Origin: a virus
IMG/VR virus record: IMGVR_UViG_3300028840_006088
Location: 1 to 24,656 of that record
DNA length: 24,656 bases
Strand: one strand, 5' to 3'
Part shown: piece by piece, positions 1-24,634 of the stretch
Layout of the letters: every line of letters starts with the position of its first letter
Numbering within the stretch: the stretch's first letter is position 1
Translations under genes and position numbers: made by a program
The notes under the pieces: model-generated
Databases searched by the model: none
Told to the model about the DNA's origin: nothing
Seen by the model: only the letters and a program-made list of their open reading frames with translations

Positions 1-105
1 CGTGAAAATCGCCTGAACTGAAAAATGCCTGGTATCTCCGAGGTCAAAGTCTGCCGTAATGTTTGACGACGCATCTGTTGACGGGATCAATTCCTTCTCA
101 ATCAT
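1..105 (-). CDS. Start of a virion-type gene, cut by the window edge
   Basis: The first 35 codons of a minus-strand gene run off the left edge. The start ATG at 103-105 overlaps the TGA stop of the preceding gene (102-104) in an ATGA arrangement. A strong Shine-Dalgarno GGAGGA lies 5 nt upstream (plus-strand tcctcc at 111-116). The visible N-terminus begins MIEKELIPSTDASSNITADF and continues with a short stretch of alternating polar and hydrophobic residues, compatible with a beta-rich structural protein. Too little is present to name a family. Being translationally coupled to the Gly-rich virion protein, it is probably part of the same morphogenesis operon. Confidence 0.75.
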   Translation of the reverse strand, partial: MIEKELIPSTDASSNITADFDLGDTRHFSVQAIFT

Positions 106-1859
106 TGGTTTCCTCCAGTTTCAAATTGGGATCTATAATTAGGGATTTTCAGCAGTGCCGCATGCGTCGCAGCCATCGCAGCAGGCCCCCTCTCAGCCGC
201 CTTCATGAATACATTTCCCCATCTCTGCACAAAATCCGGGTTGCTTTTGGCGATTTCAGCAATTTTTCTCAGTGTGACAGCTCCGGCGGCGCTCCCCCTT
301 TCCCGAGCCAGTTTGTTTGCACCGCCCGCCAAAGCGGCAACGATCGCCCCGGTGATCGGCTCTCCCGTCATGAGCCCCATTGTTGCACCGGCTCCGATGC
401 CTGTCCCGTAGTCGGATGGCGAAACCAGCCTGTTCGACAAATTCTTGAGAGCCCTGTCCGATGCGGCATCGCCAGCCTGCTTGAATGAACCGTATTTGCC
501 TTTCAGCTTTTGATAGCTTCCCAGCAAATCCCTGACACGCTCAAGCCCCTGTCTGGTCTCACCGGGGATCACCTCATCCCTGACTACAAGTTCAGTGCCC
601 TTGAGAGGCATGTTTTCCGGAACGTCCTGAGCAAGTCTCTGCCCGATTCTTTTTTCAAGAGCATCGGCTGTCTCATCCATTTGGGTGCCGATGATGTTTC
701 TTATCTTGTTGGTGACGTCCTGATCCGACACAAGGATATCGGCATCGGTTGCCTTGTGCTTGAACTGATTTTTCCAGTCCTTGGCCCTCTCGAAGGTAAG
801 CATACCCTCGCCCTCGAGGTTTTCAGCCTCCTTGTAAATTCTCGTTTTCAGGGCTTTCCCCTTTTCGTTGGGGACAAGTTCATCTGCGTAGCTCCGGAGC
901 CTGTCGGCCATGCGCTTCCCGTCGACCGCACCCTGTGGATAAAATGCGTCGACCGCCTTGCCGACCTTGCCAAGCTCGCCCCCGTAAAATTTTCTGGTCT
1001 CTGCCAGCTTCGGAGCGAGAGTCTCGACATTTTCAGTACCAGTCAAAAGAGGCTTTCCACTTGGAAGCCGTTCTTCGATGATGTCCTCTCCGACTTTCCT
1101 CAAACCCTTTTCAAGCTTTTGAATGTCGCCCGCACCTTGATGTGTGCTTTGTGCAATCTTTCTCAGAGCCCCGATGTTCTGCCCGGTCGCAGCCTTGACT
1201 GCTCTTTCAGCGGCCTTTTGCGTTGCCTTCTCCGCGATCCCGGTTTTCGCTTGATTCAGAAGTCCTGCGCCTCCCCGCGCCAGTTTGTCGATCCCGTATT
1301 GGGAAGCGCCTCCGATTCCGGCTCCAATCCCGACATCCGTTGCAAGGTCCCCGACCTCCCCTTCCGTCAAATCAGCCTCGGAGTATCCTCCCCCCGCAAG
1401 CCCGCCCATCGCAGCAGCCTGTCCGGCTTTTGCAAGAGCCCCCGCCCCCTTGGCAAGCCCGACGCCGGGAATGAGCATGCTTGCTCCTCCTCCCCCCATC
1501 ATGCCGGCCATAAAGATTCCGGGATTTTCACGTTCGGCTCTTTCATAACGCGGACGAACCTCTTCGTCCCTTATCTGCTTGTAGCGAGCAAGAAGGTCCT
1601 TGAGTTCATCGGGGCCGGTAGCAATCTCGTAGAGGGCACGCCCGGCCGATTCAAGTTCATCGGGATAACCCATGAGAGCGCCCTGAGCGGCGCCCAGAAG
1701 ACCGGACTGCATTGGGGTAAAGGAAGATCCCATCATATCCTCATCAGTGAGATATCTGGGGTTGCCTCTTGCCGTCCTATCCGTGGTTTCCCCCTGCATC
1801 ATATCCTCATCAGTGAGATACATGGGGTTGCCTTTTTTGGTTCTTTCCATTTCCGGCAT
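102..1859 (-). CDS. Gly/Ala-rich internal virion (ejection-type) protein
   Basis: A protein of 585 residues when started at the ATG at 1857-1859. I prefer this start because GGAGG (plus 1867-1871) sits 7 nt upstream; an in-frame ATG at 1883 lacks a spaced Shine-Dalgarno. Residues 9-21 and 31-43 repeat the motif GNPxYLTDEDMM with a period of 22 residues. Residues 113-200 are strongly Gly/Ala-rich and hydrophobic with several GxG clusters, and a second such stretch lies near residues 500-550. The region between is charged and helical. Gly/Ala-rich, potentially membrane-active segments in a long protein following the portal are typical of podovirus ejection proteins. That role is inferred from composition and position; no enzymatic motif is seen. 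Confidence 0.75.
   Translation of the reverse strand: MPEMERTKKGNPMYLTDEDMMQGETTDRTARGNPRYLTDEDMMGSSFTPMQSGLLGAAQGALMGYPDELESAGRALYEIATGPDELKDLLARYKQIRDEEVRPRYERAERENPGIFMAGMMGGGGASMLIPGVGLAKGAGALAKAGQAAAMGGLAGGGYSEADLTEGEVGDLATDVGIGAGIGGASQYGIDKLARGGAGLLNQAKTGIAEKATQKAAERAVKAATGQNIGALRKIAQSTHQGAGDIQKLEKGLRKVGEDIIEERLPSGKPLLTGTENVETLAPKLAETRKFYGGELGKVGKAVDAFYPQGAVDGKRMADRLRSYADELVPNEKGKALKTRIYKEAENLEGEGMLTFERAKDWKNQFKHKATDADILVSDQDVTNKIRNIIGTQMDETADALEKRIGQRLAQDVPENMPLKGTELVVRDEVIPGETRQGLERVRDLLGSYQKLKGKYGSFKQAGDAASDRALKNLSNRLVSPSDYGTGIGAGATMGLMTGEPITGAIVAALAGGANKLARERGSAAGAVTLRKIAEIAKSNPDFVQRWGNVFMKAAERGPAAMAATHAALLKIPNYRSQFETGGNQ
1731..1835 (-). repeat. Two 37-39 bp direct repeats, period 66 bp
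   Basis: Positions 1731-1767 and 1797-1833 match with two differences. Both encode GNPxYLTDEDMM in the N-terminus of the Gly-rich virion protein. The period of 66 bp is a whole number of codons (22). Confidence 0.85.
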
Positions 1860-1861
1860 TT

Positions 1862-2863
1862 CTAATCCTCCAAAGCCTTCCATCTTCCATCGGGTAGCTT
1901 CATATAGCGATCCCCGTTTTTTTCTCTGATTTCGGGCTCACCGGCCACGGCTGTTCCGTCCTCTCTGGCCTGTCGCCCTTTTTGCTTTTGAGCCATGTCC
2001 ACGTCATATGTCTTCGCAGTTTCCCGCCTTGCAGCAAGAGCCTCTTCAGGATTGATCCCCTTGGTTTTCATTCTTTCGGCAAATTCAACATAAAGATTCT
2101 TGAGCTTGGATCGTTGCATTTCCTCGCTGTCGAACACAGTGGGTGCCATTTTCAGAAAGCGGGCCTCCTCGTCCTTGTTAATCGCCCCGCCCGACTGCAA
2201 CCTGCCAAGAGCTTCTTGGAATCTGGTTCGAGATGCGGTGTAGGGGTTATCTCCGATCAGTGAAAAAGTGAAAGACCTCGAAGGTCCGAAAAGAGCCTCT
2301 TCCATATCGACAACACCTTGGAGGGCCATGCCCGCTTTTTCAAAATTGGCTTTGTCGGTTGGGTTCATGGCCGCAACTTTTTTCTGATAGTCAGTAAGGG
2401 GCTTTCCGGCGGCGTCGACCTTCGCTTTCTTTGGATCGATCTTCGCGAGATAATCCTGCTGGCGCTTCCACAGGTTGAATTTTTCATCCTGCTGGGCCTG
2501 CCGCTGAGGTCTGTAGAGGTCGGCCTTGAAGCTCGCCAATGCCATTTGGTCTTGGAAATCCCGATCCTTCATCCTTTCACGTTCGGCCATCTGCTCTTTT
2601 CGCCTTTGGGCATCCATGAGATAGGACATCAGTTTGCCCTCGCGGGCGTCGCGCCTCCTTTGAAAATCCCTTTGGGATGCCTGTTCCCCCTGAGCCCATT
2701 TCTGGACGCCGGAAGTATCCGCAGTGCGGCCGTCAACCATTCCAAATTGCGAGGCGGCATCCATCATGCTCGCAACGAGAGACGGATCAACAGGCGAATC
2801 AGATCTGTCACGTTCTGGCCTCATCAAATATTTGATCACCCTTGGATCTATGTTTCCGTTCAT
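1862..2863 (-). CDS. Charged helical virion-associated protein, function unknown
   Basis: A protein of 333 residues starting at ATG 2861-2863, with AGGAG (from plus-strand ctcct) 6 nt upstream. It is dominated by Arg, Lys, Glu, Asp, Gln and Met; roughly residues 50-180 are predicted helical and coiled-coil-like, rich in RxxRDxR and QxxxxKxQ patterns. There is no signal peptide, membrane segment or catalytic motif. It lies 9 nt after the previous gene, and its stop comes just before the preferred start of the next gene. Placed between two other long helical proteins after the portal, it is most likely a minor or internal virion protein. I do not recognise the family. Confidence 0.7.
   Translation of the reverse strand: MNGNIDPRVIKYLMRPERDRSDSPVDPSLVASMMDAASQFGMVDGRTADTSGVQKWAQGEQASQRDFQRRRDAREGKLMSYLMDAQRRKEQMAERERMKDRDFQDQMALASFKADLYRPQRQAQQDEKFNLWKRQQDYLAKIDPKKAKVDAAGKPLTDYQKKVAAMNPTDKANFEKAGMALQGVVDMEEALFGPSRSFTFSLIGDNPYTASRTRFQEALGRLQSGGAINKDEEARFLKMAPTVFDSEEMQRSKLKNLYVEFAERMKTKGINPEEALAARRETAKTYDVDMAQKQKGRQAREDGTAVAGEPEIREKNGDRYMKLPDGRWKALED
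1867..1871 (-). promoter_or_regulatory. Ribosome-binding site for the Gly-rich virion protein
   Basis: GGAGG on the minus strand is spaced 7 nt from ATG 1857-1859. It lies just before the stop of the previous gene. It supports the 585-residue start over an ATG at 1883. Confidence 0.7.
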
Positions 2864-2872
2864 TTCATGCTC

Positions 2873-4150
2873 CTATCCATAGATATTTGATCGACCGTAG
2901 CCGTATGCCTGCCTGTCCTTTTCAGCCTCTTCCCGCCTGTATTTCCGATCGGCGCTTGATGCCAGACCCTGTGCAAGGACATTGCTGAAGCCTTGTATTG
3001 CAGCGTTATCGGCAGCCGCGCTTCCGGCAATGTCGCCTCTTCTTTCCCTTACGACTCCTGCCATTCCAGCCATCTTGTCCTGTGTGTCTTGATAGCCCTG
3101 CTCCTTCCACCTGTTGAGCCAGTCTGTATTGCCCTGCCTCCATTTCGCCCTCAAAATTTCTCTGGCATCGTCGTACGATCTTTGCTGAACCAGCCTGTCG
3201 TACTCGTCTCTTGCCAGCTGATCCTGTCGCGCTCTCTCGCGATACCTGTTTTCATAGTCCTGAAGTGCAATGCGGTCGGCCCTCTCACGATCTAATACCT
3301 TCGCTTCGTTCCTTCCTGTAACGTTCATGTCGGCCAGCCTTTGGGCCTCCTGAATATTCCTCAGATCAGCTCGGTTCATCGCATCGGCACGCATCTGCTC
3401 CCAATCCTGATGCCTTTTGCTCATCCGCTGATTGAAACTGTTTATTATGTCGAGGTTTTGCTGCTGAAGACCTATGTCTTCGGCCCTGATCCTTCCACCA
3501 AGGTCCGCTCCCTGCGAGAGTGCCTGAAGCTGGTTTCGGTATGCCTCGGCTTCCGCAGCCAGCTGCATTTGGGCATTTCGATCCATGGCCTGACTTGCAG
3601 CACCGATCTTGCCGGCAAGTTCAAGACCCGATCCGGCCAATCCCCTTCTTTCGAAATCTTGCTGGATAGAGGCCGTCCTTGACTGGGCTTCGGCCTGCGC
3701 CCTGTTTTGCGCATCCATTACCCGCTGCTGAAAAATCGGATCATATCCATCCTCTCCGATTTCCATAAAGCGGCGAAGAGCCTGCTTTTGCGCTTCCCTA
3801 CCCTCACCCATGGCCTCAGTCTCTTTAATGAGTTCGGGCTTCTCTTCCAGAATCAACGGCGCGATTCGGGGCTGGTATTTTTCAACAATTTGATATTCTT
3901 CAGGGCTGAGCTTTTCCATGTTGTATTGGATTTTTTCCAGCTCCCCGGCGAATACCGGTTCTTGAAGCCTCTCGGCATGAAGCTCTGGAGGGTCCTCAAT
4001 TGTAAGATCATAGTCAGGTGGTACAAGCCCCTCGTACATTCTGGCGATTTTGTCCAGCTCCGCCTTCGACGCAGCCCGAGCCTTCTCAGCCTGATAATGT
4101 TGCGCGATTGCACTGACTGCCGCGATTCCAGCTATTGCTGCAAGTGCCAT
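2873..4150 (-). CDS. Gln/Ala-rich coiled-coil internal virion protein
   Basis: A protein of 425 residues. The N-terminus (residues 1-18, MALAAIAGIAAVSAIAQ) is a short hydrophobic helix; the rest is highly helical and rich in Ala, Gln, Arg, Asp and Glu. Around residues 160-240 it contains a QQDFERRGLAGSGLELAGK segment followed by a long Ala/Gln helix. I associate this pattern with conserved podovirus proteins encoded near portal and ejection genes, but only from memory. The start ATG at 4148-4150 has a GGAGGG Shine-Dalgarno upstream, and the gene directly abuts the stop of the previous one. The likely role is an ejected internal core protein, with the hydrophobic N-terminus possibly engaging a membrane or the portal. 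That is inference from position and composition. Confidence 0.75.
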   Translation of the reverse strand: MALAAIAGIAAVSAIAQHYQAEKARAASKAELDKIARMYEGLVPPDYDLTIEDPPELHAERLQEPVFAGELEKIQYNMEKLSPEEYQIVEKYQPRIAPLILEEKPELIKETEAMGEGREAQKQALRRFMEIGEDGYDPIFQQRVMDAQNRAQAEAQSRTASIQQDFERRGLAGSGLELAGKIGAASQAMDRNAQMQLAAEAEAYRNQLQALSQGADLGGRIRAEDIGLQQQNLDIINSFNQRMSKRHQDWEQMRADAMNRADLRNIQEAQRLADMNVTGRNEAKVLDRERADRIALQDYENRYRERARQDQLARDEYDRLVQQRSYDDAREILRAKWRQGNTDWLNRWKEQGYQDTQDKMAGMAGVVRERRGDIAGSAAADNAAIQGFSNVLAQGLASSADRKYRREEAEKDRQAYGYGRSNIYG

Positions 4151-5908
4151 TTACAATCCCTCCCATTGCAAATTAGGGTCCGGTGACAATGTTGGCATCA
4201 TTCCCGCCAGTAATTCCGAATCAAGAGTACCACCCGGCGCATCCGGCACGCTAAGGTCGACCGCACCACCGGCCTGTGCTTCCGCCGCCCTTCTCTCGGT
4301 GTCCATCTGATAATCCCTTCGAGCTTGCTCGAGCATTGGATTGAGCCTGTCGAGCAGGTACTGCCTGTAGTTTGCCTCGTCAAGAAAACCCCCGCCCATC
4401 TCGGCACCGCCCGCTCCGTATGCCTGTGTCAGTCCCAAGTCGGCACTTATCTCATTCAATGACTGGGCCTCTTCCGGCGTAAGCACGTCGTATGCCCCCA
4501 AATCTCTCGCATACAGCGGATCAACAGTTATGTCCTGATACTGTGAAGCCATTGCGGGATCATAAAACTCTCTGAGGAACGGATTTTCCTGCAGGACCTG
4601 TTCACCTATTTGTGCAAGTCTGGGCTCATAGGAACCCCTCAGCTCGGCAACCCTTGCATCCTCGATATCGGCGCGCGTCTGGGCACCTCCCAAAATCTGA
4701 TCCATTAGAGATCGCTGATCAATATCCCTTTGGGCTCTCAGGTCTCTTGCCTGCCCGGCAATATTTTCATAGTAGCCCCCTTCGTCCACGGAGTATTGCG
4801 GCCTCAACGCTCCAGCGGCACCGTAAGCCTGGCCCCCTTCGCCGAGCATACCCATGATCCTGTTGAATTGATCCGCCTCGGTCTGATCGACAAACTGCCG
4901 ATAGCCGTAGTCGGGCTGATCAACAGTAAGGTAGTCGGCTATGTTTGCCTGGGCCTGTTCGAGTTGGGGGGCGATCCTCGAACCGTATTCCTGGGTCAAA
5001 TCACCCTCAACCTGTTTTCTGATCCTCTCGGATTCCTCTCCGCCCAGTGTTCCAACATCAAGGTTTCTAAGCATGTCATTGTATGCATCGGCCTCAGCCT
5101 GATTTTGAGCTTTGAGTTGAGACTCTCTTTCAGTGAGAAAATCTCTCGCCTTTTCCCGTCCGGCTTCAAACCGCTCCTGTCCATATTGTTGGGCCTGCGC
5201 TTCAAGTTGTCCCGGAAGTGAGCCCCTTTCACGTTCGAGGGCTCTTTCGTCTATTCGAATATCAGACACGGTATCAAGGAAGGTAGGGTCTCTTTGCATG
5301 AGCATTACATCAAAAGCACTCATCCCCTTTGTGTATCGGGGGCCTTTTCCCTGTGAGGCCAACCTCATCAGTCCGGCGCTTGTGGATAAGTCATCAACAC
5401 CCTTTACGCCAAGTCCTTCAGCTCCCGTGAACTGATCGGGCATGTCCGCCATTCCCCGGCCCATGATGCCCTGAATGCGCTGAAAATCCTCTCCGCCCTG
5501 GCTGACGGCACGCTCCAAGGTGGGACGTGTCACATCGTATTTTTGCGAAGCCTGCTGCTGATATTGTTGCGTGTATTCGTTTGCCCTGTTCTGCAAAAGC
5601 GCCTGATTTCTGTCGATACGCCCCCTCAAATCCGAGAGCCCTTCGGGAGCCGCCGTTTTTCCCACGTTGGCCTGGAGCGCCATCGCCTTTGCTGAAGATC
5701 CCGGATCTTTCGTATGTTTGACGGATTCCGGAGCCCCTATGTGAGTTGTTCCGATTTCTCCCTCGGTTGTGGTTTTCACCATTTCCGAACCCATCGGAAG
5801 AGGAGCGCCCTGTCCACCACTTTCCTCTTGCATCCCGCCCCCGAAAATATCCTGCTTTTCAGGTTCTGCTCCCACAGCCTCATCGATTTTTGAAAATGCA
5901 TAAGCCAT
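4151..5908 (-). CDS. Long Gln-rich virion protein following the portal
   Basis: A protein of 585 residues starting at ATG 5906-5908, with AGGGGAT upstream and only 2 nt after the portal stop. The first 80 or so residues are low-complexity, rich in Gly, Glu, Lys and Thr, and probably disordered. The remainder is helical, with many Gln, Ala, Glu and Tyr residues and repeated Gln-rich coiled-coil stretches (about 95-130, 225-275 and 295-320). No catalytic motif or membrane segment is visible. Position immediately after the portal and composition resembling ejected core proteins of short-tailed phages suggest an internal virion protein. I do not recognise a named family, and a portal-associated or scaffolding-like role is also possible. 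Confidence 0.72.
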   Translation of the reverse strand: MAYAFSKIDEAVGAEPEKQDIFGGGMQEESGGQGAPLPMGSEMVKTTTEGEIGTTHIGAPESVKHTKDPGSSAKAMALQANVGKTAAPEGLSDLRGRIDRNQALLQNRANEYTQQYQQQASQKYDVTRPTLERAVSQGGEDFQRIQGIMGRGMADMPDQFTGAEGLGVKGVDDLSTSAGLMRLASQGKGPRYTKGMSAFDVMLMQRDPTFLDTVSDIRIDERALERERGSLPGQLEAQAQQYGQERFEAGREKARDFLTERESQLKAQNQAEADAYNDMLRNLDVGTLGGEESERIRKQVEGDLTQEYGSRIAPQLEQAQANIADYLTVDQPDYGYRQFVDQTEADQFNRIMGMLGEGGQAYGAAGALRPQYSVDEGGYYENIAGQARDLRAQRDIDQRSLMDQILGGAQTRADIEDARVAELRGSYEPRLAQIGEQVLQENPFLREFYDPAMASQYQDITVDPLYARDLGAYDVLTPEEAQSLNEISADLGLTQAYGAGGAEMGGGFLDEANYRQYLLDRLNPMLEQARRDYQMDTERRAAEAQAGGAVDLSVPDAPGGTLDSELLAGMMPTLSPDPNLQWEGL

Positions 5909-5910
5909 TG

Positions 5911-7914
5911 CTATCCCCTTTGAAGCAAGTCTGTTGCCGGTTGAGCCACATCTCCCACCACCGGCGAAGTCGGTGCATCGATGCCTGCCGGTGCGGGCTC
6001 GTCAACTGCGCCCGGAATCGGCGGACCTCCAGGGCCGGCCGGCGGAGGAGGAGGTGGCGGTGGCGCTGGAGGTTGCAGACCTCCCTCCGGCATCTGCCCC
6101 GTCTTCATGATCCCCATGAGCACCGGGTCACCCTGCTTGAGCTGCTTGTAGTGATCCATTATGTGTTGAAGTATTGTTTGCACGCTCTTTCCGTTCAGCC
6201 TGTTTTTTATGTCGGAAAGACAACCCGAATGATCCTTCATATGCATTAGATGATCGTCAGTCGCAAGCACTGGAACCATCTCGCCCATTTCAAGGGCTTC
6301 ATTTTCCTGAGCGATGAGATCGCCCTCGTTGAGTTCATTTTTGTAGATGCTGTCGAGCGGCCTTCCTTCAAGGATGGATACATAGTCGGGCCATATATCC
6401 TTTGGCACTGTCAAAAGCTTTTCACCGACCTCAAGCCTTCCGGCAAAGCTCTTGAGAAGAGGATTCACAGTCTCAAGCTTCATTGAAGATACATTTGATA
6501 TGTCTTCACCCTTGAAATCCCGATATGTCAGCTGCCCGCCTTTGCCCTTGAGTTCCACTTTCTGTGGAATCTTCGCAAATTTCTTGTAGGCATTGACAGC
6601 ATGCATCATCGTTTTTTCCCAGCAAAGATTATAGGATTTGGAAATGCTGGTAATGAATTCGATCGAGTTTGCCGACAGAGTTGCAATAGCGGTTCCCGAA
6701 GACACGCCGGGGGGAAGATTTCCCGTCATTGCACCTGATATGAAGCTCAGATCCTGCATGAGGTCCTCAAGCTTGTCTGTGAACTTGAAGGTTTCAGGTG
6801 CGGACTTTGTCAGGTTCAAAGGTGTCGGGGCTCCACCTCCGGGAATGCCCGGAACAGGTGTGTACGATATGAAATTCATGCCGTTGATTTCATCAACCTG
6901 AACATTAGATCCTCGTGGATTCAGCACATTTTGAACAGCAAACTGACTTTGGTTGGTTGCCACTGCTGAAAGGGATGCATCAAACATTTCCTGACAACCT
7001 GAAAGATCGGTTAGTTTTGAATAGCCGGTTCCCGTGTCAAGAACCGCCTCCGGAATATTGGGCTCGACCGGTATTGCACCGTACTTGTTGGGACCGTCGT
7101 AGAAAATTGTTTCCGAGTCCGTATAAAAAATCATCCTCCCCTTTGGAAGGGAGGGAGTCGGCTTGTGAAAAAACTCGTAACAATATATTAGATCGTCTTC
7201 ATCAAGCAATTGGCGGTCAATCCAGTTGTTGGGTCCGTTCTCCTCGTTGACGCTCGGAATGCTCTTGATTTCCCTTTCGAGATCCGGGTGCTCGGCAATC
7301 AGGTCCCACCTGTTTTTTTTGACCCGAACCTCAACCCATGGTTGATCATCCCAAGGGACCATAAGGTTATAGAATACATTGAATGGCGAATGAATGGATA
7401 CATTGACGCTGCCGGTGTTTATGATTCTGCCGGAAGCGTCTTTAGTATATGGAGTTCCTCCGGCTGTGTCCCAGGTAGCCTTCGTAAACCATGCACCGCA
7501 CACCAATCCGCCTTCGCACAGCTGATCACCCTTTATGTCGAGCCTTTGCGAATCAACGACCTGCTCGGCAACGGCATTTCCAAGTTTTATCTCATTTATG
7601 GCATCGGCTCCGTCAGTTTGGGCCGATGCCTTGAATGCAAGCCTTTGCTTTGTGACAACTGATGTGAGCTGTCGAATGAGGGTTCTTGCCTTCGGAGTAT
7701 AGAACCTTGTCAGCTCGCCCTGTATCCCCTCGAAGATCAGAGATGTGTCCCATGCCGAGGGATGAAGAACCGGAGAGTAATACGCATAGTAATTTCTCAG
7801 CCACATTTGCTTGAAGGGAGATCCGTGCCATGAATACCAGTGGGTGTGGAAATCTATCAGACGATCACAGACATCCTTTCCCTCCCGATAAAGCCAGTAT
7901 TCATGCTTGCTCAT
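5911..7914 (-). CDS. Portal protein (podovirus type)
   Basis: A protein of 667 residues, close to the length of large podovirus portals. The portal is the dodecameric ring at one capsid vertex through which DNA is packaged and ejected. Visible features are an aromatic-rich N-terminal wing-like region (residues 25-60), a middle region with conserved-looking IHSPFNVFYNL (174-184), and the segment PPGVSSGTAIATLSANS (401-417). That SG-x-A-x-x-L pattern is characteristic of such portals and precedes the long stem helices. The C-terminal 60 residues are Pro/Gly/Ala-rich, with eight consecutive prolines at 618-625. The start ATG overlaps the nozzle stop in an ATGA arrangement, with AAGGG upstream. 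It lies far downstream of the terminase and capsid genes, which is unusual. Confidence 0.85.
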   Translation of the reverse strand: MSKHEYWLYREGKDVCDRLIDFHTHWYSWHGSPFKQMWLRNYYAYYSPVLHPSAWDTSLIFEGIQGELTRFYTPKARTLIRQLTSVVTKQRLAFKASAQTDGADAINEIKLGNAVAEQVVDSQRLDIKGDQLCEGGLVCGAWFTKATWDTAGGTPYTKDASGRIINTGSVNVSIHSPFNVFYNLMVPWDDQPWVEVRVKKNRWDLIAEHPDLEREIKSIPSVNEENGPNNWIDRQLLDEDDLIYCYEFFHKPTPSLPKGRMIFYTDSETIFYDGPNKYGAIPVEPNIPEAVLDTGTGYSKLTDLSGCQEMFDASLSAVATNQSQFAVQNVLNPRGSNVQVDEINGMNFISYTPVPGIPGGGAPTPLNLTKSAPETFKFTDKLEDLMQDLSFISGAMTGNLPPGVSSGTAIATLSANSIEFITSISKSYNLCWEKTMMHAVNAYKKFAKIPQKVELKGKGGQLTYRDFKGEDISNVSSMKLETVNPLLKSFAGRLEVGEKLLTVPKDIWPDYVSILEGRPLDSIYKNELNEGDLIAQENEALEMGEMVPVLATDDHLMHMKDHSGCLSDIKNRLNGKSVQTILQHIMDHYKQLKQGDPVLMGIMKTGQMPEGGLQPPAPPPPPPPPAGPGGPPIPGAVDEPAPAGIDAPTSPVVGDVAQPATDLLQRG

Positions 7915-10900
7915 ACAGATACCCTTTCTCCATAAGGACGGATTGCAAATGAAAATGCCTGAATGTTTGTAGGCTCACCCGCCCTTGTATGTGTGATAAT
8001 TGGTTGCAAAAACGTGTTTCTCGCCTGAAACGGCGGGACATAAACACGAATCACCGGTGCTGGTTGTGTTCTCGTTGTGAGTTCTATTCCGGTTTCCTGG
8101 CCCCACGGTTCGAAACCCCATGGGAAATTTCCCCATCCGGCGAAGCTTATCGATGAATTCCATTCTATTTCACTCGAACCGCCATAGGTTTGGCCGGTAA
8201 AACTGATGGTCGCCTTGGAAATGGAATTGTCTCTCAGGTGTACGCTCATTTGGGCGAAGAGCTTCATGCGACCGACAAGTCCGGCATGAAACGGACTGAG
8301 TTTTACAATTCTTTCAAACCGTTCGTATAGTATGGGCGTATCGGAAACTGCGAGGTTGTTCACAGCCGATACTGTAGCACTGTATTGATTTCCGGCTATA
8401 AGAGAAGGATCGGAGTCGATATAGGTGATAACTGAGTCCTTCACTATCATGTCGCCCTCTTCGGGGACGGCTGTGCTTATCGTGAAGGTTACAGTCAGGC
8501 CGCTGATCGCATCGATCGTAATTGTATGGTTTTGGTCTGCAAAATCAGTTCTATTCTGGACCTTTCTTTCCCGCTGTATTTCGTTGTCGGTGCTGATGTA
8601 ATAAAGTTTGTCGCCGGGTCCAACCACTCCGCCTGTGAAAAGCCTGTCCCAGGTTGTCCACTCCTGAGTCACGATGTTGAAGCAGTATGCTACGGACGCA
8701 CTTGTTTCATTCGGTTTTGTCGTTGTGAGCAGGTAAAGCCTCTCAGTCTCGTAGGCAATGCCCGACGTCTCTGAAGACAGGTTTGTCTGTCCCAAAATAG
8801 GCTGGATCAGCTCCTCAATGCTCTCCCTGCTTACAATCTGGACGGATGATTCTGTGACAAGGCAGACGCCCTGATTCGAAAGAAAGATTACTTGATTGTT
8901 TATCACGTCGGCGCTGTTGGCGGCAACGCATACAACTGTCCCGTCAAGAAGAGTTGCATTGAAATTGTTGGGACTGTCACCTGTGATCCTCCAAACCCCG
9001 TCTTCCTTCAAGAGGATCAGCGAGTCTCTTAGTGCCTTCGATCTCAGTATCTGGGCGTTTTTCGAACCCACGGGAAACCTGTTAACCAGTGGAACCGCTT
9101 CGGGTTCGTTCTCCTTTGAGGCTAAATACGTATGAGGCAAATTTTCGTTGGTTGATGTGACCTGCGTGCCCGAGTCGAAAGCGGTCGGAAATATCGGGCT
9201 GAAGGCTTGGGCGACTGTCGAGTCTGAAGCCCTAAAGCTGATGCCACCGCCGAATCCCTTGGCCTGAAAACGCAACAGGCCGGGTATGTCGTTTATTCCG
9301 CTGACATACTGCCCGTATATCACAGCCGAGCTGTCCCGGTTGACAGCTCTTACAATGGCTTCGGCAGTGTCCCGCAGTCTTACAGACGCGCTTGCATCTT
9401 CGGAAAGATAAAACATGGGATAATCGCCGGCCTGTTCAGTGACTCCCTGTATTTCGCATGAGGTCTCATCCGTCCAGCTTACTGAAGCCCCGCCTTTTGT
9501 AAGGGATATTTCGAACGTGTCGGCTGTTTTGCTCACAACATAATATGTACCCGATGACAAGGTGCCTGTGACATTGCCTATGTAGACTCCGTCTCCGTCT
9601 GCAAATCCGTGTGCGACATAAGTTACCTGCAGGTCCCCGGAGGCGCTGGCGACTGTCGCATACGCTGTGCGGTTTCCCAGTCCGGTCTGTGCGACATACC
9701 TTCTTGTCACCGCATCCACCTTGATTTCAATCCAGTCTGTTGCCGTAATTTTGGTTGTGTCGACAACAGATATGTCAATCAAGTGACGGGTTGTGCAGTT
9801 CGCATAAATTGCATGACCTTTGAAAAAAGTCACATCCTCGCACACAGGGGGCCTGTAGTTGGCCTGCAGCTCACCCTCCCGGCTGTTTTCGTTGGTATAG
9901 AGTTCGGCTCCGAGAAGTATGTCGTCGATGTCGTCATCGAAATAAGCGATACCCGCCGATATTTCGGCGCTTGTAAGTTCACGCTCGGCAACAAGCTTGA
10001 AATCGCTGAATATGCCCACTGATGCGTTTTGCTGTGAAGATCTGTATACCTGATAGAACCATGTGAGGGATGTGGAAATTTCGCTTGGTATGCTCAATTC
10101 GACTCGCACAGGCATAGCATAGGCATAATCAATATCCGAGCCCGAATCATCGCTGTCCGTGTGAGTGAAGGTAAATGTTGTCGTGCTTGCCACCGTTATC
10201 TGATACTGCCCTGCCGGAACAGGGTTTGTTCCATCAGAGTCGACCGGCACCGTAATGTACATTCCGGTCGTGAGCCCGTGGGCCGATGATGTTGTTACTG
10301 TCACCGTGTTCGAGACTCTCGCCCATGAGTTTGTTTCAACAAGAGTGTTTTGTATGGTGGCTATTTGGCTGGGAGCCCCCAATATGAGGTTGTCGTTGGC
10401 ATCCCTGTAGCCAAACAGAGCCCGGTATCCCACCAATCTCGATGCAGTCGTGACAGGAAAGAATGTTGAAAGCGAACCCACAAGAAACCGGGGTGATATA
10501 TCGAGACCCTGCGGAGCACCCGCCTTTACCGTCTGCGAATTGAATGCAGTCATCTTTATCATGCCGTTGTTTGTAGTCATGTAAAGATTTGTATTTGCTT
10601 TCAAATCACGGGAAATCCGTCCGGAACACGATATTGTTTCGCCGGTGATTGCGGATTCGGATCCTGTTTCATTCGGTGCAGTACCTGTATCGGTGTAATA
10701 GCGAAGTTTCGAGTTGTATATCGCTATAAGAGTCGATTGATATGTAAACAGGTTGTTCAGCGTGCCCGATGATGGGTCAAAATACTCATAAAATCCACGC
10801 CGAGACGATACAATGTTGTCGTTCTTCAATACCACATTTTTAGCAATCTCAAGTGATCCATCGGGGACAGTGAAGCTGTTCCGCTCGAGATAGAGCCCCT

Positions 10901-10937
10901 TCATTTTTTTGATTTCAGGAGTCTGGTATTGAGTCAT
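7911..10937 (-). CDS. Tail nozzle / tail tubular protein B-like (gp12-like) protein
   Basis: A beta-rich protein of 1008 residues. Its length, the N-terminal section (KGLYLERNSFTVPDGSLEIA, residues 14-33), the central segment ALRDSLILLKEDGVWRITGD and the following IFLSNQGVCLVTE segment match the style of the large beta-propeller nozzle proteins of short-tailed phages, which close the tail tip and conduct DNA. Two modules (about 210-258 and 430-480) share the pattern AHGLxxGMYI...GQYQITVASTTTFTF, a small beta-fold often found inserted in phage structural proteins and resembling the FCCH-type domain. It overlaps its upstream neighbour by one base (TAATG) and the portal in an ATGA arrangement. 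It follows the adaptor gene directly, as gp12 follows gp11 in T7. The assignment rests on pattern and context. Confidence 0.75.
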   Translation of the reverse strand: MTQYQTPEIKKMKGLYLERNSFTVPDGSLEIAKNVVLKNDNIVSSRRGFYEYFDPSSGTLNNLFTYQSTLIAIYNSKLRYYTDTGTAPNETGSESAITGETISCSGRISRDLKANTNLYMTTNNGMIKMTAFNSQTVKAGAPQGLDISPRFLVGSLSTFFPVTTASRLVGYRALFGYRDANDNLILGAPSQIATIQNTLVETNSWARVSNTVTVTTSSAHGLTTGMYITVPVDSDGTNPVPAGQYQITVASTTTFTFTHTDSDDSGSDIDYAYAMPVRVELSIPSEISTSLTWFYQVYRSSQQNASVGIFSDFKLVAERELTSAEISAGIAYFDDDIDDILLGAELYTNENSREGELQANYRPPVCEDVTFFKGHAIYANCTTRHLIDISVVDTTKITATDWIEIKVDAVTRRYVAQTGLGNRTAYATVASASGDLQVTYVAHGFADGDGVYIGNVTGTLSSGTYYVVSKTADTFEISLTKGGASVSWTDETSCEIQGVTEQAGDYPMFYLSEDASASVRLRDTAEAIVRAVNRDSSAVIYGQYVSGINDIPGLLRFQAKGFGGGISFRASDSTVAQAFSPIFPTAFDSGTQVTSTNENLPHTYLASKENEPEAVPLVNRFPVGSKNAQILRSKALRDSLILLKEDGVWRITGDSPNNFNATLLDGTVVCVAANSADVINNQVIFLSNQGVCLVTESSVQIVSRESIEELIQPILGQTNLSSETSGIAYETERLYLLTTTKPNETSASVAYCFNIVTQEWTTWDRLFTGGVVGPGDKLYYISTDNEIQRERKVQNRTDFADQNHTITIDAISGLTVTFTISTAVPEEGDMIVKDSVITYIDSDPSLIAGNQYSATVSAVNNLAVSDTPILYERFERIVKLSPFHAGLVGRMKLFAQMSVHLRDNSISKATISFTGQTYGGSSEIEWNSSISFAGWGNFPWGFEPWGQETGIELTTRTQPAPVIRVYVPPFQARNTFLQPIITHTRAGEPTNIQAFSFAIRPYGERVSV

Positions 10938-11875
10938 TAGACGCCCCCGTAAAGCCAGCGGCGCTGCTGAAATCTTCCGCCCCTGACAAGGCTGTGCCGG
11001 TTTATGCAGACTTTCGGCTCGCCCTCGTTTCTGGGTTCCAGAAGCTTCAGAAGCTCCTCCTTTTCCATGGCCACATCCTGATTCAACGCGACTGCACCCT
11101 GATCATCTCCGATCGACTTAAGCACTCTTTGGGCTGCACATGTTTCAATGTATGGCGAACATTCATCGGGTATCATCGTTATCACGGGTGCGAATCCGGC
11201 AAGTGCAATGTAATCTCCGGCGGCAAGAGAAGATGGTATGTCTGAGGCATCAAACGTCAGGGTCGTCCCGCTTACGTTTGTACAGGTTTTATCGAAATCG
11301 TAAATCTGATTTCCGGATTTTCCCTGAACGAAGTCAATGACTGCTCCAGTCGTTATGTCCCCAACGGACTCGACTTCTACGCTTGGGCTCGATACGCTGG
11401 TCACCTTCGCCGCATTGGCAAGTTTCACTAGATAGGAAGGTCTCATCTTGAACCATATCTGAAGAGACTCACCGGAGGAATAGCTGCTTCCAACCTCGGG
11501 TACAAGCCGTATCTGATCGCCCCGGAATGTGTGGCCCCAGCTCAGTGCAGTGTCGTTGAAAAGATGAATGTCCTCCGGAGCAATGTACGGACAGTTTCGC
11601 GGTGTTCCGCTCGAATCCTGAATTTTCAGGTCACGAATGGTTCTTCCGATGGCACGGTAGGGAATGGCGTACGAACTCTGTCCCGCAACAAGTGAAGTCA
11701 GGGTCTGAGTGACAAAAAACTCGCCGTTCACGCTGTCGACAAGAGGAACAGCCTTGATTTTGATGACATCGTCAATCAAATCCAATATGCCGTCGTCATC
11801 GACGGTGACCTGATTCGTCGACACTAAAGCCCTTCTTTTTGTCCCCGCAAGTATTCTGTCAGCTGTCACAGCCAT
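10937..11875 (-). CDS. Head-to-tail adaptor (gp11 / tail tubular A-like) protein
   Basis: A protein of 312 residues starting at ATG 11873-11875, with GAGGT upstream. The N-terminal helical segment VDDDGILDLIDDVIKIKAVP (residues 25-44), followed by a beta region with FFVTQ, is typical of the adaptor family bridging portal and nozzle in podoviruses. The central part, roughly residues 90-240, is beta-rich and probably an inserted domain. The C-terminus is helical and ends in basic and aromatic residues (GGRFQQRRWLYGGV). It sits immediately upstream of the nozzle gene, the usual gp11-gp12 order. Absence of a tail-tube or tape-measure gene nearby supports a short tail. An alternative is a minor structural protein of unknown role. 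Confidence 0.68.
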   Translation of the reverse strand: MAVTADRILAGTKRRALVSTNQVTVDDDGILDLIDDVIKIKAVPLVDSVNGEFFVTQTLTSLVAGQSSYAIPYRAIGRTIRDLKIQDSSGTPRNCPYIAPEDIHLFNDTALSWGHTFRGDQIRLVPEVGSSYSSGESLQIWFKMRPSYLVKLANAAKVTSVSSPSVEVESVGDITTGAVIDFVQGKSGNQIYDFDKTCTNVSGTTLTFDASDIPSSLAAGDYIALAGFAPVITMIPDECSPYIETCAAQRVLKSIGDDQGAVALNQDVAMEKEELLKLLEPRNEGEPKVCINRHSLVRGGRFQQRRWLYGGV

Positions 11876-18591: not shown

Positions 18592-18993
18592 TTACCCGAA
18601 AAATATGATGAGTTCAACAGTGATTTGTTCTGAACTTGGAGGGGAACCGGAAAAGCCAGCCTTCACGACAAGCTGGCCGAGGGAATTGTACTTCCACCCG
18701 AAACTGTCGAGGACGTAATATACGTCATCGACGACTCTCCTTACCATTACCTGAGTTGCACGCCTGTCCCTCGGATCAGCGGAGAAGATGATGCTCTCCG
18801 TGTTCGGAGTCAGTGCAACCTGCCGGATACGGCAGTCAAGATTTTCCTGAAAATTAAGACCGTTTCTAAGGGACCTTGTTATCACCTCCACGAATTCGGA
18901 AAGGTAAATGAGGGCATCGCTCAATTGCTGGCCAGCCTCGGTGGCAAGATACTGGGAAACTTCAAACAGTCTCGATATCGTTATTTTCGCCAT
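18592..18993 (-). CDS. Conserved-type structural protein, 133 residues
   Basis: A protein of 133 residues. The N-terminal half is helical (MAKITISRLFEVSQYLATEA, then SDALIYLSEFVEVITRSLRN). Residues 44-54 read LRNGLNFQENL. The C-terminal half is beta-rich, with DSFGWKYNSLGQLVVKAGF, and ends in a hydrophobic strand. I recall similar small proteins upstream of scaffold and capsid genes in metagenomic phages, but cannot name a function. No catalytic residues stand out. It lies after an 86-nt gap that separates it from the helix-turn-helix gene and may start the structural subgroup. It is likely a minor virion or head-tail component. The ribosome-binding site is weak (GAAGAGAT). Confidence 0.6.
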   Translation of the reverse strand: MAKITISRLFEVSQYLATEAGQQLSDALIYLSEFVEVITRSLRNGLNFQENLDCRIRQVALTPNTESIIFSADPRDRRATQVMVRRVVDDVYYVLDSFGWKYNSLGQLVVKAGFSGSPPSSEQITVELIIFFG

Positions 18994-22087: not shown

Positions 22088-22480
22088 CTACCTCCTCACG
22101 ATTTTAAGCAGTTCTTTTCTCGGAACTGATTTAAGCAATTTGTGGTCTTCGCTGTCCGCATCGATATTGTTTTGGATGTTGAGGTCTGTCCTATCGGTCC
22201 ACCTGAACCTGTTTTTCATATTGAATATGAACGACGTGGCATTGAAATTTTCGATCTTGCCCAACGATGACGCAATTGCTATCCTCTCCCAGAACTTGAG
22301 ACATTTTGCAAACCCGATTTTTTTAGCCTCGGAAAACTCCTTATGCCTGCGTGCCCACTCGTGCACCGTATCCTGATTCACGTCAATATTGGCTGCGAAG
22401 CTTTCGAAACTGTAACCTTGCTCCATATGCTTTACAACATCTTCACAATACTTTTTTTTGTATTTTGACGGCCTACCCAC
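22088..22480 (-). CDS. terS: Terminase small subunit
   Basis: A protein of 130 residues when started at GTG (22478-22480), which has the ideal AGGAGG (plus 22487-22492) 6 nt upstream. A TTG at 22528 would add 16 residues but lacks a good Shine-Dalgarno. With the GTG start the protein begins MGRPSKYKKKYCEDVVKHME, a form typical of this family. The N-terminal helix-turn-helix (SFESFAANIDVNQDTVHEWA, about residues 24-43) recognises viral DNA. The following helices end in FNMKNRFRWTDRT, a common small-terminase segment. The protein forms rings that recruit DNA to the large subunit. The GTG overlaps the methyltransferase stop (GTGGGTAG). Confidence 0.85.
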   Translation of the reverse strand: MGRPSKYKKKYCEDVVKHMEQGYSFESFAANIDVNQDTVHEWARRHKEFSEAKKIGFAKCLKFWERIAIASSLGKIENFNATSFIFNMKNRFRWTDRTDLNIQNNIDADSEDHKLLKSVPRKELLKIVRR

Positions 22481-23627
22481 GTTTCGCCTCCTTTCCCGTA
22501 AAATCCTGCCATCGCTTGATGATGACAAAACAATAATGCGGATCTAATTCCATGCCGTAGCACTTTCGGTTAGTTTTTTCGCAAGCTATGATTGTTGATC
22601 CCGAACCGCTGAAAGGATCTAATATCGTGCTCTTGCTTTTCGATGAATTCATTATCGCGTACTGAACCAAGGCTATTGGTTTCATGGTCGGATGTTCGGT
22701 ATTTTTATTTGGCCTGTCAAAATTCCAACAAGTTGTCTGCTTTCGATCACTGTTCCAGATGTGCGGTTTTCCTGCCTTCCAACCGTAAAGAATTGGTTCA
22801 TGCTTCCAATGATAATCTTGTCGGCTCATTGCCAATTTGTTTTTGATCCACACAACGACTTGTTTTAAAAGCCACCCTGATTCAATAAGAGATTTGCGAA
22901 AATTTATTCCCTCAGTATCTGCGTGACAAATGTAGATAGGTGCCCCTTCCTCAGCAAATATGTACATGTTTGTGAATGCATCGTATAGAAACTTATAAAA
23001 AATTTCGTCTTTCTGATTGTCATTTTGTATCGTAAGCTTATCGGGATTTTTCCCTTCATAATTCACGTTGTACGGAGGATCAGTGAAAACCATATTTGCC
23101 TTGGTTTCGCCCAGCAACTTCTCATAAGATTCAATTTGAGTTGCATCTCCACAGAATAGAGTGTGTTCTCCGAGTTTCCATATATCTCCACAGGTGACTC
23201 CAAATTCATTCCTTTTGGTTTCTGAGATGTCGTCATCTTTCTCACTTGCTTCCGGTATTACTTCAGGCAACTCAAAGTCATCATAGGCGACACTTCTCAG
23301 CTCATCATCAAGGCTTTTAAGCTGATCTGTCAATCCATCCATATCCCATTCCGCAAGCTCCGATGTGCGGTTATCCGCAATAGCGTAGGCGGTCAATTCA
23401 GCCGGCTCCAGATCTGAAACCACAACCCCTATCCTGTCCCAGCCAAGTTTCTTGGCGGCAGCGAGTGTCCCGTTCCCGGCTCTTACTATATTGTTTTGAT
23501 CAACTACGATCGGTTTTTGCTGGCCGAATCTCTTCAGGCTCGCCGCAATGGCATCGATGTTTTTTTCATCGTGCTTCCTGACATTGGACGGGTCGAAAGA
23601 CACCTCTTTTATGCTTATCAATTTCAT
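22473..23627 (-). CDS. ParB-like domain fused to a DNA adenine methyltransferase
   Basis: A protein of 384 residues. Residues 1-100 are a ParB/sulfiredoxin-like domain: NVRKHDEKNIDAIAASLKRF, then a GNGT motif (51-54) and ADNRTSE (84-90). Residues 145-384 are a beta-class N6-adenine or N4-cytosine methyltransferase. The catalytic motif DPPYNV (183-188) comes before HPTMKPI (312-318) and the AdoMet-binding DPFSGSGST (337-345), the order of the beta class. The NV after DPPY favours N6-adenine. No restriction gene is adjacent, so it is probably an orphan enzyme that protects or marks phage DNA. The start ATG overlaps the upstream stop (ATGA). Such fusions are known in phages and mobile elements. 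Confidence 0.87.
   Translation of the reverse strand: MKLISIKEVSFDPSNVRKHDEKNIDAIAASLKRFGQQKPIVVDQNNIVRAGNGTLAAAKKLGWDRIGVVVSDLEPAELTAYAIADNRTSELAEWDMDGLTDQLKSLDDELRSVAYDDFELPEVIPEASEKDDDISETKRNEFGVTCGDIWKLGEHTLFCGDATQIESYEKLLGETKANMVFTDPPYNVNYEGKNPDKLTIQNDNQKDEIFYKFLYDAFTNMYIFAEEGAPIYICHADTEGINFRKSLIESGWLLKQVVVWIKNKLAMSRQDYHWKHEPILYGWKAGKPHIWNSDRKQTTCWNFDRPNKNTEHPTMKPIALVQYAIMNSSKSKSTILDPFSGSGSTIIACEKTNRKCYGMELDPHYCFVIIKRWQDFTGKEAKRG
22487..22492 (-). promoter_or_regulatory. Ribosome-binding site fixing the small terminase GTG start
   Basis: A perfect AGGAGG on the minus strand sits 6 nt before GTG 22478-22480. It lies inside the end of the methyltransferase gene. This decides the GTG over the upstream TTG as the small terminase start. 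Confidence 0.8.
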
Positions 23628-23920
23628 CTGACGCTCTTCCCTCCGGGCATTCTGTGAGATTGTATCATGTTTATCCGGTCCTCGAACGATGTCACCTTCA
23701 TTTGGATGTCGGACAGCATCTCACCAAGCGAGTTGTTTGCCTTGCTGGCTTTTTCCGTCACGTCATTGAATTCCTTTATCTTTTGCTCAAAATCCCGCTT
23801 GCTGTTCCAACAACCAACCTCCGCGTCACGAACCGATTTCAAAAGAAAGAAGAACGCGCCGGCCATTGATGAACATACGACTATGAAAAACATAACCAGA
23901 CAAAACAAAAGCGTACTCAT
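23624..23920 (-). CDS. Membrane-anchored coiled-coil protein, function unknown
   Basis: A protein of 98 residues. Residues 4-27 (LLFCLVMFFIVVCSSMAGAF and following) form one hydrophobic membrane segment, with few charges before it, and a charged coiled-coil tail follows (residues 40-90). The start ATG at 23918-23920 has AAGGA upstream. The stop overlaps the methyltransferase start (ATGA). A single N-terminal membrane segment with a helical tail could fit an i-spanin, a membrane-associated regulator or an envelope-associated protein; no enzyme motif or lipobox is seen. It is the first clear gene of the minus-strand block. Function unknown. Confidence 0.6.
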   Translation of the reverse strand: MSTLLFCLVMFFIVVCSSMAGAFFFLLKSVRDAEVGCWNSKRDFEQKIKEFNDVTEKASKANNSLGEMLSDIQMKVTSFEDRINMIQSHRMPGGKSVR

Positions 23921-24001
23921 TTAATCCTTTACCCCCTTTTTATTTTCTGGTAATTTTCGCCCCTGTAAACCATAGGTTTTAAGTAACTTATTTTTGTTCA
24001 T
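23921..24001 (-). CDS. Possible 26-residue small protein before the block
   Basis: An ATG at 23999-24001 opens 26 codons that end in TAA immediately before the start of the membrane-anchored gene (TAA-ATG). The translation begins MNKNKLLKTYGLQGRKLPEN and ends in KKGVKD; it is strongly basic. No convincing Shine-Dalgarno precedes it. The exact abutment with the next start and the compositional bias make it worth recording, but it may be chance in AT-rich DNA. Confidence 0.3.
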   Translation of the reverse strand: MNKNKLLKTYGLQGRKLPENKKGVKD

Positions 24002-24025
24002 AATGCAACCAAAAGGACACCATAA
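23921..24025. other. Divergent intergenic region
   Basis: A 105-nt AT-rich gap between the minus-strand block and the plus-strand genes. It probably contains promoters in both directions, but no -35/-10 pair is convincing; CATAAT at 23999-24004 is the best -10-like hexamer for the plus strand. AAAGGA (24012-24017) is the ribosome-binding site of the plus-strand gene. Confidence 0.5.
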
Positions 24026-24328
24026 ATGACTGGTATACCTAAAGGTATTTTGTCAGAAGAAGTGGCAAAAAACATATCTGGCACCCTCGTAAATGAAATG
24101 GAGATCAAAAAAAGAATGGGCAAGTTCTTGAGTCAGATGGGCCAGCTTGATGGCTTTATGCCATTATTGGAAAAAAATAGACCGATGCTCGACGAGTATC
24201 GAGCAATCATGATTCAAGAAATAATGAATTCCTTTAAAGCTGCAAATTTGTATGATCAGATGAAAGAGGAGGGAGTCTTTGAGAAATTAAAGAACACTCT
24301 TCCCAAAGAAGAAAACAGCAACTTTTAA
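24026..24328 (+). CDS. Small helical plus-strand protein, unknown
   Basis: A protein of 100 residues starting at ATG 24026-24028, with AAGGA 8 nt upstream. It is predicted all-helical and rich in Glu, Lys, Met and Leu, with SEEVAKNISGTLVNEMEIKK near the start and MIQEIMNSFKAANLYDQMKE later. No membrane segment, cysteine pair or catalytic motif is visible. It is the first gene of the plus-strand side and is 3 nt from the next. Being divergent from the morphogenesis block, it may belong to an early or middle module. Family not recognised. Confidence 0.6.
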   Translation: MTGIPKGILSEEVAKNISGTLVNEMEIKKRMGKFLSQMGQLDGFMPLLEKNRPMLDEYRAIMIQEIMNSFKAANLYDQMKEEGVFEKLKNTLPKEENSNF

Positions 24329-24331
24329 TAT

Positions 24332-24634
24332 ATGGGCATGCGGATGTTTTTTTACAGACTGAACGATGACGTGGAAGCGGTCCTGTGTGAAGAATTCACG
24401 CTGGATCGAAGCCATAATATTACTACAAAAATAGGCAACTATTTAGTTTCAACTGTATTTTTGTCGATGGATCATAATTGTACCGGCGAAGGGGGACCGC
24501 TGGTCTGGGAAACAGCCATCTTTGGTCCTGGGGATGAAGACTATTGGGGCCGTTGCAATATATTTGCCAGATATTCGACTTACGAGGAGGCAAAAGCCGG
24601 GCATGATAGAGCATGTGAAGAGATTAATAACTAA
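24332..24634 (+). CDS. Conserved phage hypothetical protein
   Basis: A protein of 100 residues. Central TKIGNYLVSTVFLSMDHN and GGPLVWETAIFG, then a C-terminal YSTYEEAKAGHDRA, recall a widespread phage family with the pattern I-x-V-S-T-V-F-L-x-x-D-H...P-L-x-F/W-E-T-x-x-F-G and Y-x-T-W/Y-E-E-A-x-x-G-H. Its function is not known to me. The start is uncertain: ATGs at 24332, 24338 and 24344 lie close together, and none has a clear Shine-Dalgarno. It follows the preceding plus-strand gene by 3 nt and ends 22 nt before the window edge. Confidence 0.62.
   Translation: MGMRMFFYRLNDDVEAVLCEEFTLDRSHNITTKIGNYLVSTVFLSMDHNCTGEGGPLVWETAIFGPGDEDYWGRCNIFARYSTYEEAKAGHDRACEEINN

Follow-up and report, generated by a model that had tools for sequence, protein, structure and literature searches.

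The window analysed here is a stretch of 24,656 nucleotides of viral DNA (IMG/VR virus record IMGVR_UViG_3300028840_006088, positions 1 to 24,656). Directly downstream (3') of its portal gene lie four consecutive, uninterrupted open reading frames on the minus strand, designated A to D (Table 1), which an earlier note had described as virion proteins of 585, 425, 333 and 585 residues and proposed as a candidate ejection apparatus. The reading frames are real and the composition ascribed to them also holds: A, B and C are rich in glutamine, alanine and charged residues, the N-terminus of B is hydrophobic over residues 1-19, and D contains 13.8% glycine and 13.0% alanine. From the portal to D the genes show an operon-like packing with gaps of 2, 0, 9 and 2 nt, if the 585-residue form of D is taken. 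This start of D, at 1859, is likelier than the first ATG at 1883 because it is preceded by GGAGGA. Direct Pfam and PHROG searches with A, B and C returned nothing significant; D matched the unannotated family phrog_5880 (E=1.7e-9). Elsewhere in the window an ORF at 22473-23627 resembles, by eye, a fusion of a ParB-N domain with a DNA methyltransferase bearing a DPPY motif.

Table 1. Position of the A-D cassette and of associated genes and features in the window
Feature	Position	Strand	Description
A	4151..5908	-	585 aa; Gln/Gly/Ala-rich, helical; first gene of the cassette
B	2873..4150	-	425 aa; hydrophobic N-terminal helix followed by long helices (predicted)
C	1862..2863	-	333 aa; charged, helical; C-terminal motif common to Mx8 p56
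D	102..1859 (first ATG at 1883)	-	585 aa (593 aa from the first ATG); Gly/Ala-rich; putative P22 gp16 / Mx8 p57 type
D N-terminal doublet, ERTKKGNPMYLTDEDMMQGETT + DRTARGNPRYLTDEDMMGSSFT	1716..1847	-	Residues 13-56 of the 593-aa form
Portal	5911..7914	-	667 aa; match to the PHROG portal family at E=4.7e-8; relocated in this lineage to the tail/ejection cassette
Putative nozzle	7911..10937	-	1008 aa; match to phrog_511 (internal virion protein) at E=2.3e-10; lies upstream of the cassette
Adaptor	10937..11875	-	312 aa; SU10_adaptor-like, weak in the window, E=0.0077
S	18592..18993	-	133 aa; E=1.8e-17 to the S family (the profile included the S of the window)

The nozzle role of the gene upstream of the portal is suggested by its PHROG match and its position. 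The adaptor can be assigned on sequence similarity to the SU10 family, the SU10_adaptor domain exceeding the Pfam cut-off at the adaptor gene in the records of relatives (the match in L111 falls outside the studied locus). The order of genes in the clade of the window is terminase-S-scaffold-coat-...-adaptor-nozzle-portal-A-B-C-D, and that in the other clade is terminase-portal-scaffold-coat-...-adaptor-nozzle-S-A-B-C-D, where S has ~137 residues. The portal gene and S are reciprocally swapped between the two clades (loci L052-L098 versus L034-L049). A portal gene after the terminase is the usual order for short-tailed phages (P22 and SU10 were compared), so the proximity of A-D to the portal is a derived state that by itself is no evidence of their role; it is the adjacency to the adaptor and nozzle that is such evidence. 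The location of the four genes after the portal, as given in the earlier note, is thus true of the window but lineage-specific, the ~137-residue gene filling the place of the portal elsewhere. S was also considered as a counterpart of T7 gp13 or P22 gp14, which it resembles in size and place, but no similarity was found.

A tblastn search of 50,697 phage records revealed a single near relative, Silvanigrella aquatica phage MWH-Nonnen-W8red 1 (W8red1; CP017838, a record without annotation), in which the order adaptor-nozzle-portal-A-B-C-D is identical. Its portal shows 37% identity to that of the window over 84%, and its B shows 30% identity. A, C and D fall below BLASTP detection; A and C were assigned by position and N-terminal likeness, and D has the same build as D of the window, with a doublet of its own (FNPDEYL twice). 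A-D are therefore not orphan genes, as this phage shows. In its record (L001) apparently identical runs of ORFs occur at 22669-24358 and 31731-33420 with masked bases nearby, which are a repeat or an assembly artefact. Viral contigs were also scanned with alignments of the portal, nozzle and B, yielding about 110 loci, and in about 78 related loci, with W8red1 among them, the order A-B-C-D recurred after adaptor and nozzle genes, which argues that the arrangement is not due to chance. A protein in the A position was present in 76 of the 78 loci with a nozzle and B, C in 70 and D in 73. Scans of host genome contigs found nothing. Profiles from the clade of the window ranked proteins of the other clade higher than every decoy in 39/39 cases for B, the best conserved member of the cassette, and in 34/40 for D, and by this measure B and D are coherent families. 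The corresponding figures were only 12/40 for A and 3/39 for C, from which it is apparent that these two diverge fast and that position is the basis for many of their assignments.

A profile built from 60 non-redundant D proteins was compared with known ejection proteins. With the HMMER filters off it matched P22 gp16 with 39.9 bits, the alignment covering profile positions 26-521 of 556 and nearly the whole length of gp16, whereas the best of 600 local shuffles, made within blocks of 10-40 residues so that regional composition was kept, reached 7.8 bits. The first 620 residues of SU10 gp24 scored 23.5 bits against 5.3 for the best shuffle. The best match of D was p57 of Myxococcus phage Mx8 (583 aa), annotated as a virion structural protein, at 104 bits, with 59 and 84 bits from the single-clade profiles and at most 22-29 from shuffles. 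Each single-clade profile also ranked gp16 proteins top among 796 real proteins, drawn from P22- and T7-like loci plus references, and about 760 shuffled ones. A caveat that must be applied is that the gp16 match was seen with the filters off only, the background search with filters on giving none, and that searching in the reverse direction, from the gp16 PHROG, gave no match. The hhalign probability of D against gp16 was 20%, the best of all families against the reference families in a comparison that was low throughout. Judged from these profile alignments D is a remote homologue of Mx8 p57, P22 gp16 and the N-terminus of SU10 gp24. P22 gp16 is needed for DNA delivery, and D, like gp16 in P22, is encoded at the end of its putative ejection operon.

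Similar observations were made for C, the C-terminal core of which matched Mx8 p56 at 35 bits (best shuffle 4.7). Mx8 p56 directly precedes p57 and is also annotated as a virion structural protein. Matches of C to ORFs in the gp20 position, directly before gp16, of some P22-like prophages were weak (14-15 bits), and P22 gp20 itself was not matched in the profile search with C. In position C is the equivalent of P22 gp20 and T7 gp15, and the weak homology together with this position suggests that it may be a gp20-type tunnel protein.

B is the positional equivalent of T7 gp14 and P22 gp7, without a link in sequence; for ejection genes, counterparts are often assigned from size and synteny alone (PMC8954989). 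Homology of B to T7 gp14, P22 gp7 or SU10 gp21/22 was rejected, there being no profile match to any of them. The N-terminal hydrophobic segment is found in B of the window and in 31/59 members of the family, and this feature and the position of the gene suggest a gp14/gp7-type protein that would begin in the outer membrane. One relative of B (L056:14793-15932) has at its C-terminus an S74-type intramolecular chaperone domain, which is normally found on fibres and spikes. A match of one B relative to the PHROG 'DNA ejection protein' (phrog_4287) depends on the S74 domain and was not used.

Structure prediction, which the earlier note had put forward as a check, left both A and B without a counterpart. 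A was predicted as a helical protein with a core at about residues 69-445 (pLDDT 77.6, with 265 residues at or above 90), the fold of which had no match in the PDB, and B as very long helices in a weak model (pLDDT 68, pTM 0.31) for which Foldseek returned nothing significant. A profile search also found no sequence relative of A among known ejection proteins, and a relationship to N4 gp52 was rejected, with 14.7 bits from one profile and 2.1 from another. Within the A family, Pfam searches detected an intein-like Hint domain and DUF6582, each in one relative. The profile comparison with the internal proteins of T7, P22 and N4, also proposed in the earlier note, thus connected D to P22 gp16 and gave no match for A or B. 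The suggestion that the set is distinct from known ones does not stand for D, probably does not stand for C, and may hold for A and B, which have no detectable relative.

Members of the A-D families are cysteine-free in 230 cases out of 238, with 15 cysteines in about 120,700 residues. Among the neighbouring proteins this was true of 0/81 nozzles, 4/77 adaptors and 5/60 portals, which carry about 6-7 cysteines per 1000. T7 gp15 and gp16, P22 gp7, gp20 and gp16, and SU10 gp20-24 are also cysteine-free. The scaffolds of these phages, however, share the feature (38/42), so the absence of cysteine fits ejection but does not prove it and was rejected as a specific mark.

A doublet was found at the N-terminus of D, which in the window opens with ERTKKGNPMYLTDEDMMQGETT-DRTARGNPRYLTDEDMMGSSFT. 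A significant two-copy repeat within the first 70 residues was detected in 36/60 D proteins (p<=0.01 versus shuffles), with a period of about 16 residues. The same test elsewhere was positive for 1/61 A, 0/59 B and 7/58 C proteins, and for 1/54 portals, 3/70 nozzles, 0/69 adaptors, 3/49 scaffolds and 1/46 coat proteins. Mx8 p57 also has a doublet (ELPPVDVEWE/DMPPPDVEWD, p=0.001); by this test P22 gp16, SU10 gp24 and T7 gp16 have none. The peptide varies from phage to phage (FNPDEYL, FLTDEEM, GPWEKY, ENWEEVP, YDFSGL and others), and no convincing case of it was found elsewhere in the same locus. The two copies have 64% DNA identity, and 42% of their identical residues are encoded by different codons, against 52% in unrelated pairs. 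A recent origin of the doublet by duplication of DNA is therefore mostly rejected, and the likeness of the copies appears to be maintained at the level of protein. A literature search found no description of such N-terminal doublets.

The ejection role proposed in the earlier note is largely supported by the position of the genes behind the adaptor and nozzle, by the homology of D and C, by the cysteine-free composition and by the lack of any match of A-D to another role. In the loci compared, the ejection genes of T7, P22 and SU10 likewise lie downstream of the adaptor and nozzle. With a probability of roughly 85%, A-D are the internal proteins that a short-tailed phage akin to P22, SU10 and Mx8 ejects. 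SU10 virions contain gp20-24 and no longer have them once the genome is released (PMC9509320), and the similarity of D to gp24, one of the proteins lost, supports an ejected role for D. The four proteins would be packed in the head during assembly, would exit through the portal, adaptor and nozzle ahead of the DNA, and may build a conduit across the Gram-negative envelope. In the proposed division of labour D would be the gp16-type protein of the set, and A would be a further helical protein of the set, which may form a ring or part of a core at the portal.

An unlikely alternative is that only B, C and D are ejected and that A is a head-assembly factor, either a second scaffold-like protein or a portal-associated ring. 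Such a role would be consistent with the lack of a relative of A among ejection proteins, with the presence of three and not four large members in the P22 and T7 sets, and with the helical, cysteine-free nature that scaffolds share. However, the head module has its own scaffold gene and A is encoded outside it, in the ejection cassette, and the composition of A is like that of B-D; moreover, five proteins are ejected by SU10 (PMC9509320) and hence four are not odd. It is highly improbable that A-D constitute a wholly novel ejection system with no kinship to the P22 and T7 sets: plain searches (Pfam, PHROGs and tblastn against 50,697 phages) return almost nothing, as such a system might lead one to expect, but family profiles tie D to gp16, SU10 gp24 and Mx8 p57, and C to Mx8 p56. 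Hardly to be entertained is the idea that one or more of A-D is a tail fibre, spike or other external tail protein, as the PHROG tail-fibre matches of one B relative, L056, stem from its S74-type domain and vanish once L056 is removed, and no fibre, spike or needle family was matched by members of A, C or D. A strong match to another role, such as a tail spike, was what the earlier note had named as evidence against ejection.

The closest known systems share some features with A-D and differ in others. In Mx8 p56 and p57, homologous to C and D, end the structural module, both are cysteine-free and p57 has the N-terminal doublet, whereas the protein in the nozzle position is smaller (536 aa), the gene in the portal position directly follows the terminase and no homologue of A was found. 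In P22 the genes for gp7, gp20 and gp16 are adjacent after the nozzle region, gp16 is homologous to D and all three proteins are cysteine-free, but there are three genes compared with four in the window (A being extra), gp7 is not alignable to B and gp16 lacks the doublet. SU10 (Kuravirus) shares the adaptor family and has gp20-gp24 after the nozzle, with the first ~600 residues of gp24 similar to D; it differs in that gp24 has 1473 residues and in that gp20 has, according to its authors, transglycosylase activity, no such domain being found in the window set. T7 resembles the window in the order and relative position of gp14-gp15-gp16 and in the hydrophobic N-terminus of gp14, as in B, but there is no match in sequence or fold, gp16 has no doublet, and its peptidoglycan hydrolase domain is absent here, none having been found in the A, C or D families. 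Most likely the set is an ejection apparatus comparable to those of P22, Mx8 and SU10, with A as an extra member and the doublet of D as a new N-terminal feature. Few models exist for the passage of protein and DNA across two membranes by short-tailed phages, and the comparison ties a large group of phages, most of it metagenomic, to the P22/Mx8 sets. To these the group adds a putative further component, A, with its confident but unmatched helical fold, and the doubled, sequence-variable N-terminal peptide on a gp16-type protein.

The doublet may bear on how gp16-type proteins are recruited into the procapsid. Scaffolding mutations in P22 block the incorporation of gp16 (PMC8402733), and by analogy the doublet of D is proposed as a two-site docking tag that would load D into the procapsid. 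A conserved architecture with a phage-specific sequence is what would be expected if the peptide follows a changing partner, whether the scaffold or another head protein. It can be put forward only tentatively, at somewhat less than even odds, that the gp16-type proteins of the group are loaded via a fast-evolving two-copy docking peptide, the architecture of which is kept while the sequence varies. A two-copy N-terminal peptide was recorded also for L217 (31525-33276).
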